From positions 1,984,001-2,048,000 of the forward strand of contig NZ_CP065138.1 in assembly GCF_015693305.1 (NCBI RefSeq): a stretch of 64,000 nt of DNA, given 5' to 3'. Below the pieces are notes generated by a model. That model made no database searches. It saw only the letters and a program-made list of their open reading frames with translations, and had not been told where the DNA came from. The position numbers and the translations under genes were made by a program. Below are positions 27,002 to 43,321 of the stretch, piece after piece. The DNA comes from Sphingobium sp. Cam5-1 (GTDB lineage: Bacteria > Pseudomonadota > Alphaproteobacteria > Sphingomonadales > Sphingomonadaceae). The number at the start of each line of letters is the position of its first letter. Within the stretch, counting starts at the first letter, position 1.

Positions 27002-27085
27002 ATGGCCAAGGGAATCTCTCTTCATGTCGGTCTGAACGCGGTCAATCCCTGGAAATACGCTGGCTGGGCAGGCCTGATGCTTTGA
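27002..27085 (+). pseudogene. 5' fragment of a caspase-family (C14) gene
   Basis: The 27-codon frame after an AAGGAG site begins MAKGISLHVGLNAVNP and then YAGWAG. This is the characteristic start of bacterial caspase-like proteins. Homology stops at about 27074 and a stop codon follows. The rest of such a gene, beginning about 65 residues later, is at 42677-43321 on the same strand. The two look like one gene split by the DNA between them. Confidence 0.6.
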
Positions 27086-27128
27086 GCTTAGTCCGTTTCC
27101 TGAAGGAAAGCCCCGGCAAGGCTAAGCG

Positions 27129-27200
27129 CCATCTTGGCCAAGATGGTGCATCCATTGTGGATGCAGCCTGTCGGAACCACTTGCTGCACTTCGGCCGAAG
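27129..27200. repeat. Three consecutive palindromes at the island's left edge
   Basis: Within 72 bp there are CCATCTTGGCCAAGATGG (27129-27146), TGCATCCA-TTG-TGGATGCA (27147-27165) and CTTCGGCCGAAG (27189-27200), all perfect. No gene covers them. They may be element ends, a recombination site or a bidirectional terminator. Confidence 0.45.
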
Positions 27201-27335
27201 CAGTGCCAGGCTGTGAAGTTGCAAATTGAAGTGGCGTGAAGCCCGCGATTAGCTGTCCGCAGTCTAAGAAGGCGGACTCGCTCAAGCCTCTGGCGAAATG
27301 AGAAAAATAACCGCTGATGCTGGTATCGAAAGCAA

Positions 27336-28181
27336 TCAGGTGTCGATGCCCCCGAGAATCGCGTCAATGTCGGCCGGACTGTGCCGCTCGACTATACCGT
27401 TGTCCGAGTTGTTGACGAGCAGGCCCCGTTTGACGGCGTCGCGTTCCGCGATGGTTTCCGCCCAGCGGATCAGATTGCGGTATCGGTCAGCCGCCAGGAA
27501 TCTGGCTGCATTCGGGTATAGCTGATCAAGCACCAATCGCCCATACCAAGGCCAGATGGCGATGTCGGCAATCGAATAATCGCCGGCGATGAACGGTCGT
27601 TCGCGCAGTTGCTGGTCCAGGACATCCAGCTGTCGTTTCGTTTCCATCGTAAACCGGTTTATCGGATATTCCATCGGGCTGGCGGCGTAATGAAAGAAGT
27701 GACCGAAACCGCCCCCCAGATAAGGTGCGCTTCCAACCTGCCAGAAAAGCCAGGACAGGCATTCGGCCCGATCCTGTTCCTCGACCGGAAGAAAGGTTTT
27801 GAAACGCGATGCGAGGTGCAGCAGAATCGAGCCGGATTCGAAGATCCTGTATGGCGTGGCGCCTGAGCGGTCCACCAGTGCGGGGATCTTCGAATTGGGG
27901 TTGATCTCGACAAAGCCGGAACCGAACTGATCGCCCTTGCCTATGGAAATCATCCAGGCGTCATATTCTGCTTCGCTCTGTCCGCTCGCGAGCAGTTCCT
28001 CGAACAGGATCGTAACCTTCTGGCCATTGGGCGTGCCTAGGGAATAGAGCTGAAAGGGGTTGGTTCCCACCGGCAATTGGCAATTCTTCCGGGGCCCCGC
28101 TGTGGAGCGGTTTCCGGCGTCGCTGGTACCCGCCTGTTCATCATGGGGCCAGACGTCCGGAATGGTATATGATTCCTGCAT
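27336..28181 (-). CDS. Glutathione S-transferase, YghU/Nu-class
   Basis: 281 residues from the ATG at 28181 (MQESYTIPDVW); an upstream ATG at 28235 overlaps the regulator gene and would add a non-conserved tail. The thioredoxin-like domain has the Nu-class signature TPNGQKVTILFEELL and then NPNSKIPAL, with ESGSILLHLA for glutathione binding. The C-terminal helical domain is complete. E. coli YghU-type enzymes reduce organic peroxides and disulfides. A Nu-class enzyme in Novosphingobium acts as a glutathione lyase in lignin-dimer breakdown. It lies just downstream of the MalT-like regulator on the same strand, in an island with a glutathione reductase. Confidence 0.85.
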   Translation of the reverse strand: MQESYTIPDVWPHDEQAGTSDAGNRSTAGPRKNCQLPVGTNPFQLYSLGTPNGQKVTILFEELLASGQSEAEYDAWMISIGKGDQFGSGFVEINPNSKIPALVDRSGATPYRIFESGSILLHLASRFKTFLPVEEQDRAECLSWLFWQVGSAPYLGGGFGHFFHYAASPMEYPINRFTMETKRQLDVLDQQLRERPFIAGDYSIADIAIWPWYGRLVLDQLYPNAARFLAADRYRNLIRWAETIAERDAVKRGLLVNNSDNGIVERHSPADIDAILGGIDT

Positions 28182-28221
28182 GGTAAATTCAAAACCCTTT
28201 CCTTTTGGCATATGCCGATGG

Positions 28222-41863: not shown

Positions 41864-41940
41864 TGGTGCACCCGACAGGATTCGAACCTGTGGCCTTCGC
41901 CTTCGGAGGGCGACGCTCTATTCAGCTGAGCTACGGGTGC
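41864..41940 (-). tRNA. trnR: tRNA-Arg (CCG)
   Basis: The complement folds as a complete tRNA: acceptor GCACCCG with matching CGGGTGC, a D-arm GCTC/GAGC, anticodon stem TCGCC/GGCGA around loop CTCCGAA (anticodon CCG, Arg), and T-arm ACAGG-TTCGAAT-CCTGT. The CCA end is encoded. Its anticodon-arm 14-mer CGCCTTCGGAGGGC (41898-41911) recurs at 42670-42683, where caspase homology resumes. Confidence 0.95.
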
Positions 41941-42100
41941 ATACCGTTCGCGAGGTGCTTACGCCATGCTTACGCGAGATTTTCATCGGCCTGAAGAGCG
42001 AACCCGACATCCGCTCAAACCGTTGTTTAGAGTCCTCTTCTGAGGAGGAACCCCTCCGACTTCCAGTCGGATATTGGCTTCAGCCATGGACTCGCGTGCA

Positions 42101-42171
42101 AGCCTGTAACCTCGGGAAAAACGGAAGCCGTCGAAGGCGTGAAGCTTCCGTTTTTCCCGAGGTTACAGGCT
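42101..42171 (+). terminator. 28-bp stem-loop before tnpA
   Basis: The 28 bases at 42101-42128 and 42144-42171 are perfect inverted copies with a 15-base loop, ending directly at the tnpA start codon. IS200 elements carry such a structure to stop outside transcription and hide the ribosome site, which keeps transposition rare. Confidence 0.6.
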
Positions 42172-42591
42172 ATGCGCTACAAGAGCGGTTGTCACACGAC
42201 ATTCCATCATCGCTACCATCTCGTCTGGGCACCGAAGTATCGGTACAAGGTGCTGATCGGCGATGTGCGCTTCAGGGTGCGGGAGATCATCCGGCAGGTC
42301 TGCGATGAGATGGGCGTCATCATCGTCAATGGCGCGCTGTCCCGCGATCACGTGCATATGTTCGTAGAGATCCCGCCGCACGTTTCTGTCAGCGACTTCG
42401 TGCGCCGCGCCAAGGGACGGTCATCGCGAAAAATCCAGCAGGAATTCGAGCACATCCGCAAACGCTACTGGGGTCAACGCTTCTGGCAACGTGGCTACTT
42501 CTCAACCACATCCGGCAACATCACCGATGACATCATCATGCGTTACCTGGACCGCCATACCCACAAGGATGGCTTCAGCCCCTCCACGTGA
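42172..42591 (+). CDS. tnpA: IS200/IS605-family transposase TnpA
   Basis: 139 residues from the ATG at 42172 (MRYKSGCHTTFHHRYHLVWA). It is a Y1 transposase: the HUH motif is in SRDHVHMFVEIP and the catalytic Tyr is probably in WQRGYFSTTSGNI near the end. Single-strand transposases of this type cut at hairpin ends on single-stranded DNA. No tnpB accompanies it. The start lies at the base of the 28-bp stem-loop, so translation is probably limited. Confidence 0.9.
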   Translation: MRYKSGCHTTFHHRYHLVWAPKYRYKVLIGDVRFRVREIIRQVCDEMGVIIVNGALSRDHVHMFVEIPPHVSVSDFVRRAKGRSSRKIQQEFEHIRKRYWGQRFWQRGYFSTTSGNITDDIIMRYLDRHTHKDGFSPST

Positions 42592-42674
42592 TCCTACCGG
42601 CCTCCGGCCGGTCAGTCATTCAGTCACTTCTTTCTTCCAACACCAGCAACCATCGCCAGACTTGACATCCGCCT

Positions 42675-43321
42675 TCGGAGGGCAGGTGCCAGATCTGAAC
42701 AGCGACGAGCCCGACGGACTGGACGAGACTTGGTGCCTGTATGACGGACAGCTCATTGACGACGAGCTCTCTTATGCGCTCTCAGCCTTCAAGGCAGGTG
42801 TGCGCATCATTGTCGTGTCGGACAGTTGTCACAGTGGGAGCGTGGTCAAGACAGCAGCGATGCAAGCGCTTCATGGAAATCTGCTCAACGTCCAAGCGGT
42901 ACTCGCCGCGCGCGCAGTCGGCGACGATAGCGTCTCGTTCGAATTGGTTGATGCGTTCTCCGGGGGCGTTCCGCGTGTGATGCCGCAGGATGTGATGAGC
43001 CGAGTTTATCTAGCCAACAAGGACTTCTACGACGAGATCGGTTCACGCGAAGAACTCAGCGAGGCCAAGAATCACGTCGCCGCGTCGGTCATCCTGCTCT
43101 CAGGCTGCCAAGACTATCAGCTCTCGATGGATGGCCCGTTCAACGGGGCGTTTACAGGGGCGCTGAAGGTCGTTTGGAACGGCGGGAAATACGCTGACGG
43201 ATATGACAAGTTTATTGGCAACATACGAAAATCACTGAACAACCCCACGCAATCGCCTGGCATCTTCCGAATTGGCGCGCGCGACACGGCGTTCGACGCG
43301 CAGCAGCCATTTTTGGTCTGA
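42675..43321 (+). pseudogene. 3' fragment of a caspase-family (C14) gene
   Basis: From about 42677 the frame reads GGQVPDLNSDEPDGLDETWC, then YDGQLIDDELSYA, and keeps the catalytic Cys segment VSDSCHSGSV. It continues to the normal C-terminus (RDTAFDAQQPFLV). The N-terminus and catalytic-His segment (normally SGHGG) are missing; sequence before 42677 is unrelated. Together with the start at 27002 it makes one gene lacking about 65 residues. It could not be active as it stands. Confidence 0.65.

Follow-up and report, generated by a model that had tools for sequence, protein, structure and literature searches.

Organization of the locus

The stretch of DNA analyzed here (the window) is a 64-kb segment of Sphingobium sp. 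Cam5-1 (contig NZ_CP065138.1), whose own genome is denoted G000. It carries a lasso peptide locus in two halves, with the precursor (A), B, and C genes on one side and the isopeptidase gene with its receptor and regulatory genes on the other, and between the halves lies a gene for a caspase-fold peptidase that is itself broken in two by an inserted segment. The features that carry the argument are given below with their coordinates in the window, G038 and G105 being two genomes of the genus that are compared further on.

20874..21752, + strand: PhyH-family dioxygenase, opening the lasso biosynthetic side (PF05721, 4.6e-22; 84% to its counterpart at this place in G038)
21749..22357, + strand: regulator that we take to be GntR-like (86% to G038, in the same place)
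22480..22599, + strand: lasso precursor A, 39 amino acids (aa) (87% identical to the G038 precursor)
22602..23315, + strand: lasso B, 237 aa (NF033537 lasso_biosyn_B2, 69.4 bits, cut-off 33)
23195..25054, + strand: lasso C, asparagine-synthetase-like cyclase, 619 aa, start codon unsettled (PF00733)
25454..26974, + strand: 506-aa protein, whose gene ends 27 bp before that of the caspase and which, from this neighborhood, is probably its partner
27002..27073, + strand: caspase gene, codons 1-24 (alignment to caspase homologues)
27074..42676, no strand: inserted segment, 15,603 bp, 58.4% G+C
42677..43321, + strand: remainder of the caspase gene, codon 85 onward (Pfam and homologue alignment)
43639..45762, - strand: lasso isopeptidase, AtxE2 family (NF033523, 828.5 bits, cut-off 400)
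45756..48326, - strand: TonB-dependent receptor (PF00593; 91% to G038 and G105)
48428..49417, - strand: FecR-like anti-sigma regulator (PF04773, 3.9e-22)
49410..50207, - strand: FecI-like extracytoplasmic function (ECF) sigma factor (PF08281, 3.7e-17)

The frames of A, B, C, isopeptidase, receptor, FecR, and FecI are all free of internal stops, so that the window holds an open A-B-C operon and an AtxE2-family isopeptidase accompanied by TonB receptor, FecR, and FecI. For the precursor, a leader MEREDDVIELGTASVETK and a core GGAGLVIDAKNGQQPFGIAED with a ring between Gly1 and Asp8 are proposed, both the cleavage and the ring being predicted from the roles that we assume for the Thr at position -2 and for Gly1 and Asp8. 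As the initial annotation stated, the biosynthetic genes stand to the left of the split and the isopeptidase operon to the right, the two converging. This orientation is kept, but the adjacency of the halves is not: the stop codons of C and isopeptidase are 18,584 bp apart, a distance that falls to 2,981 bp when the insert is subtracted, in agreement with the 3 kb first estimated.

One caspase gene in two pieces

Both caspase pieces lie on the same strand and align to the same homologue, the 298-residue caspase P0002. The left open reading frame (ORF; 27002-27085) translates as MAKGISLHVGLNAVNPWKYAGWAGLML followed by a stop, and 22 of its first 24 residues are identical to the start of P0002, while its last three codons and stop are unlike caspase. 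The right piece, of 214 residues and with no internal stop, matches Pfam PF00656 with 29.7 bits (cut-off 21.4) and is 89% identical to P0002 across its whole length. Moreover, DNA of a Rhizorhabdus metagenome-assembled genome (L069) matches both, at 78% over 77 bp for the left piece, including the ribosome-binding region, and at 71% over 645 bp for the right one. The close matches of the caspase and of the mobile elements that bear organism names belong to Sphingomonas, Rhizorhabdus, and Novosphingobium. The earlier description of a single caspase gene split in two is borne out by these alignments, and the outcome that would have spoken against it, pieces from different subfamilies, did not appear. 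The distance of 15.6 kb between the pieces was also correct (15,603 bp, 27074-42676), although the codons lost, put at about 65, number 60 and correspond to P0002 residues 25-84. The Cys of the DSCHSG motif is kept, whereas the His of the SHG motif falls in the lost codons. Given the catalytic roles that we presume for these two motifs, the caspase is probably dead because this His is gone.

The ORF of the 506-aa protein upstream of the caspase has no internal stop. It matched no Pfam, NCBIfam, or PADLOC family, and a search on plasmids returned no match. However, a homologue with 24% identity adjoins a caspase in G128, another genome of the genus, and in Sphingobium sp. AP50, with the order of the two genes swapped, which indicates that the protein and the caspase would be a recurrent pair. 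In G128 (L243, G128:C31:44000-63999, positions 8659-10932), the caspase is followed 16 bp on by a 463-aa relative of the 506-aa protein; this pair is found near a long AAA/SMC-like gene, with a lasso isopeptidase about 27 kb off on the same contig. Among 80 caspase loci kept from 294, the partner protein is present at one (L099), and lasso B, C, and isopeptidase genes are present at none (tblastn, E ≤ 1e-2).

The inserted segment and its right end

The G+C content of the insert (58.4%) is lower than that of the A-B-C side (65.6%) and of the isopeptidase side (63.6%). The following features were located within it.

27336..41498, no strand: putative catabolic cluster (Pfam/NCBIfam-type matches)
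~41553..41722, no strand: IS5-family remnant between the thiolase gene and the tRNA (matches of 69-74%, three of the eight listed being annotated as IS5 family transposase)
41864..41940, - strand: extra tRNA-Arg(CCG), part of the insert, with the junction 737 bp away
41897..41910, no strand: first core CGCCTTCGGAGGGC, in the tRNA anticodon arm
~42026..42623, + strand: IS200 element in the upstream spacer of the tRNA (PF01797, 1.9e-41; NF033573, 150.7 bits)
42669..42682, no strand: second core CGCCTTCGGAGGGC, with the caspase directly after it and the right junction inside it

The putative catabolic cluster comprises, in order, genes for a glutathione S-transferase, a LuxR/MalT-type regulator, a second glutathione S-transferase, a SnoaL-like protein, a GMC oxidoreductase, CoA-transferase subunits A and B, a TonB receptor, an NAD-disulphide oxidoreductase, and a thiolase; the thiolase gene is followed by the IS5 remnant, the tRNA-Arg(CCG), the spacer with IS200, and the second core. 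Thus, the label of catabolic island given in the initial annotation is right as to the catabolic genes but too narrow, given that the right end consists of tRNA-Arg(CCG), IS200, and IS5 remnant. Two genome sets were used for comparison, 94 genomes of the genus and 397 drawn from the family. The GMC oxidoreductase was found at E ≤ 1e-100 in two of the 94 genus genomes, its own and G003 (44%), and at E ≤ 1e-150 it had no match in the other 396 of the 397 family genomes; among the 8000 candidates scored outside these sets, the best relatives were 50-53% identical. On plasmids, the best place covers just 8% of the catabolic region, corresponding to the CoA-transferase genes. The insert is a composite segment with foreign gene content.

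Read against the genome G106, the right end of this segment is composed of the extra tRNA-Arg(CCG), its upstream spacer, and a second copy of the anticodon-arm core. Positions 41833-42027 and 42624-42683, that is, tRNA and spacer, match a nearly gapless stretch of G106 at 85% and 77%, the latter match, before the second core, spanning 60 bp. Within the 64-kb window, the 14-bp core has two copies, one in the tRNA and the other 772 bp away at the junction; with IS200 removed in silico, this distance would shrink to about 175 bp. What follows the second core is the 5' half of the tRNA in G106 and other genomes and caspase codon 85 in the window. IS200 carries its transposase gene, of the Y1 type, at 42169-42591, and its ends were set from a copy on a Novosphingobium plasmid and from the uninterrupted spacer of G106.

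The same arrangement of the tRNA is found elsewhere in the genus, where a second tRNA-Arg(CCG) 5' half lies 166-212 bp from the first in 15 of the 94 genomes. Twelve of these were read, and the first core is within the tRNA in 11, G007 having the core in neither copy. These units of 166-212 bp (e.g., L244-L250, L060, and L063) seem to swap the tRNA 5' half, displacing the old one; two stand in tandem in G106, and they are too small to hold an integrase gene. In G037, on the other hand, the core separates the tRNA 3' half from a 6.5-kb element whose tyrosine integrase starts about 190 bp away, which argues that integrases use the tRNA-Arg(CCG) core in this genus. That element (L065, G037:C1:1014000-1033999, positions 9900-16590) also carries a gene pair that we take to be istA/istB-like as well as an unassigned 338-aa protein next to one that matches the Piwi domain weakly (21.9 bits against a cut-off of 28.9). 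The element is perhaps a short-argonaute defense island. The other tRNA-Arg(CCG) of the Cam5-1 genome (G000:C1:856264) is 90% identical to the extra one and lies 4 kb from a tRNA-Leu(TAG), a pairing also seen in six of ten stretches scanned from other genomes; the window contains no tRNA-Leu.

Comparison with contiguous lasso loci

At E ≤ 1e-60, the isopeptidase is present in 50 of the 94 genus genomes, at 100 places, 64 of which were measured for the gap between C and isopeptidase, with the C of the window as query. Five of the 64 gave no C match, two of them (L179 and L191) being cut by a contig end, and at L195 the C match is weak (38 bits). At the 59 measurable loci, C converges on the isopeptidase, and in 52 of them, the two stops lie between an overlap of 145 bp and a distance of 57 bp, small overlaps being approximate because stops were located by extending matches. 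The seven wider gaps measure 449, 769, 930, 1,456, 2,198 (G105), 2,670 (G038), and 18,584 bp, this last being that of the window and the largest by far.

The closest relatives of both lasso halves are the same two genomes, and in each of them the halves converge. The identity of C is 75% with G038 and 74% with G105, the next best being 41%, and that of the isopeptidase is 82% and 83%, respectively, the next best being 51%. For A and B (87% and 66% identity), the comparison is with G038 only because the G105 contig begins at the end of B, and for receptor, FecR, and FecI the next-best values are uninformative, as the comparison at most loci reached no further than 500 bases past the start of the isopeptidase. 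Since both halves are nearest to the same contiguous locus in G038 and G105, the two lasso halves in the window are one ancestral contiguous locus, later divided. This agrees with the earlier proposal that the insertion divided a single lasso system: the halves are 2,670 and 2,198 bp apart in G038 and G105 and within 150 bp at 52 of the 59 loci, and the contrary outcome, halves always far apart in relatives, was not observed.

The Cam5-1 genome contains a second complete lasso locus (L041, G000:C1:328000-347999, positions ~10460-19270, or ~338-347 kb of G000:C1), with its own B, C, isopeptidase, and receptor and with the C and isopeptidase stops 3 bp apart. Also, just beyond FecI, an integrase gene and a tRNA-Leu(CAG) are found in both G105 (L038, 10800-13730) and G038 (L039, 2240-5300), and for this reason the lasso locus may itself ride on a tRNA-Leu island in these relatives, an arrangement not seen in the window. 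In the window, positions 51456-52175 hold the start of a gene that is presumably flavin-dependent monooxygenase-like, whose frame is apparently lost after about 115 codons.

The gap between C and isopeptidase

The genes that occupy the gap differ from one close relative to another. In G038, the occupants are a protein of 119 aa and one of 516 aa that contains an IrrE-type peptidase domain; those of G105 are two unassigned proteins, 229 and 303 aa long; and those of the window are the uncharacterized 506-aa protein and the caspase. Of the remaining wide gaps, L149 contains an HU-like protein, L185 a RES/Xre toxin-antitoxin pair together with HU, L208 a transposase of the IS4/5 type, and L183 a single unassigned ORF. 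When the gap proteins of the window and of G105 were run through PADLOC, the sole match was a weak one to caspase, obtained with P0002.

The initial annotation had looked to a relative for an intact caspase between lasso halves, and this expectation failed, G038 and G105 having no caspase at E ≤ 1e-10. At that threshold, only the Cam5-1 genome and G128 among the 94 have such a caspase, which makes it a passing guest of the gap; and, as the three closest relatives each hold different gap genes, the caspase is not a standing part of the lasso locus. Its presence in the gap before the insertion is indicated by the split gene itself. New genes are thus tolerated where the ends of the two operons face each other. 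A broader proposal, which we consider rather doubtful, is that the gap serves in this lineage as a seat for swapped accessory pairs, perhaps of defense or toxin-antitoxin type, and that the tRNA-Arg(CCG) core, on which the units of 166-212 bp act, can fire into a protein gene as a secondary site, which would explain how the foreign segment reached the caspase.

Proposed origin of the split and alternative explanations

We propose that a single lasso locus, with the A-B-C and the isopeptidase-TonB receptor-FecR-FecI operons converging on a short cargo with a two-gene module of protein and caspase, was split when a 15.6-kb foreign composite segment broke the caspase of that module. For this account as a whole, we estimate a probability of roughly 0.82. 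Regarding the mechanism, a tyrosine-integrase reaction may have joined the second core to caspase codons 84-85, where GGAGGGC would be the core-like site, a step to which we would give even odds. A single later deletion over the left junction, for which the chances seem equally balanced, would have removed codons 25-84, the left end of the segment, and any integrase. In favor of such a deletion, the proposed insertion point has the 60 missing codons directly on its left, and the loss of a single stretch would explain at once why these codons, a left core, and an integrase are absent. IS200 would have moved into the spacer independently, without making the junction. Insertion plus deletion is a reconstruction, as the left junction has no core, repeat, or known relative, and the two junctions look as if they had arisen differently.

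Several observations weigh against this account or its steps. An intact caspase in a lasso gap was found in none of the 94 genus genomes. The left junction shows neither core nor repeat, and relatives of the sequence around it (27060-27345) were not found in the own genome or on plasmids. No integrase was detected among the scanned ORFs of the insert, and none of the 22 listed of the 27 integrase matches in G000 falls in the window. The caspase remnant has a G+C content of 57.5%, like that of the insert, so that G+C does not mark the right boundary. In addition, the nearest caspase DNA (L069) reads GGTGGACAG at codon 84, so that the match to the core would have been a partial one; a join through a 7-bp microhomology would fit equally well.

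This last possibility leads to the main alternative, in which the split is the same but the right junction was made by illegitimate joining at GGAGGGC, or by repair, and not by an integrase; we regard it as a serious candidate, somewhat short of an even chance. Besides the missing integrase and the left junction devoid of core, it is favored by an overlap between core and caspase of perhaps 7 bp or less, and by the occurrence of GGAGGGC at three places of the + strand within 26900-43400, which means that so short a match is not rare. Nevertheless, the break falls inside a core that is duplicated at the tRNA in 15 of the 94 genomes and that bounds the integrase element in G037.

The remaining alternatives concern the IS element, the assembly, and the unity of the lasso system. 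IS200 lies 53 bp from the caspase remnant, whose open frame extends back into it, and transposition or an IS-driven deletion might have made the right junction; however, the element ends at about 42623, and the interval between it and the caspase (42624-42683) is tRNA spacer, uninterrupted in G106, which makes this role highly improbable and led us to reject it. An assembly artefact, with unrelated contig ends joined within or close to the tRNA-Arg or IS200 repeat, and for which the repeats at the right end (the second tRNA-Arg copy, 90% identical, and IS200) could be invoked, is slightly less probable still, considering that the window is inside a 2.85-Mb contig of a 4.37-Mb genome in 5 contigs, that the full 671-bp IS stretch is single-copy in the genome, and that the left junction has no repeat. 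Finally, the halves might come from two different, neighboring lasso systems with their other partners elsewhere in the genome, as the existence of the second locus L041 could suggest. This idea of two unrelated loci, the least probable of all those considered, was rejected because L041 is complete, with its stops 3 bp apart, and both halves of the window share one contiguous locus in G038 and G105 as nearest relative.

In the account that we favor, of one locus split by a foreign segment, loss of lasso function does not follow from the insertion. Both operons end, rather than begin, at the insertion site, and hence the divided lasso system may have kept its expression.

Relation to known systems

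The lasso locus, the tRNA-targeted island, IS200, and the caspase are all of known kinds. The window shares with the proteobacterial isopeptidase-type lasso loci (astexin, caulosegnin, sphingopyxin, and the sphingocin of Sphingomonas BPH) the A, B, and C genes and the opposite-strand isopeptidase, TonB receptor, FecR, and FecI; for sphingocin, passages of the published report describe an A-B-C operon adjoined by isopeptidase and TonB receptor genes (PMC11006600). It differs from them in that a foreign segment separates its halves by 18.6 kb, a layout present at one of the 59 measurable loci. Among the titles and abstract openings listed from an open-licence library for lasso peptides, lasso gene clusters, and tRNA integration, none describes a lasso locus split by an insertion.

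With the genomic islands of tRNA genes (Islander), the insert has in common the duplication of an anticodon-centered core in a tRNA gene and the adjoining foreign content; in a table of the Islander report, 2083 of 3919 islands have anticodon-centered sites and 159 have a 5' tRNA fragment (PMC4383910). A complete tRNA gene is found at one end (41864-41940). However, a protein gene and not a displaced tRNA fragment follows the second core, the other end has no core near 27074, and the integrase expected inside was absent from the ORFs scanned and from the matches listed. As two of the three defining features examined, the displaced fragment and the integrase, are missing, the insert was not filed as a tRNA island, although its right end derives from a site of that type. 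The IS200 copy has the Y1 transposase, the single gene, and the left-end hairpin of the IS200/IS605 family and is an ordinary bystander in the tRNA spacer. Likewise, both caspase pieces are homologous to the prokaryotic caspase-fold peptidases (PF00656; "metacaspase" or "caspase family") and keep the DSCHSG Cys, but, unlike these, the gene is split, lacks the SHG His and 60 codons, and is paired with an uncharacterized protein. Taken together, this looks like ordinary gene-cluster remodeling and not a new kind of system: the process is ordinary, and the layout is rare.

Significance

According to passages of the sphingocin report, Sphingomonas BPH lost the use of phenanthrene when a transposon stood in a lasso B gene (PMC11006600). 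Beside this result, the presence of a putative catabolic cluster in a lasso locus is at most suggestive of a functional tie. Moreover, the tRNA-Arg(CCG) core with its very small 5'-half units, found in 15 of the 94 genus genomes, deserves a study of its own. As a natural split lasso locus with both operons open, the window asks whether the making of the peptide and its reception and opening need neighboring genes.

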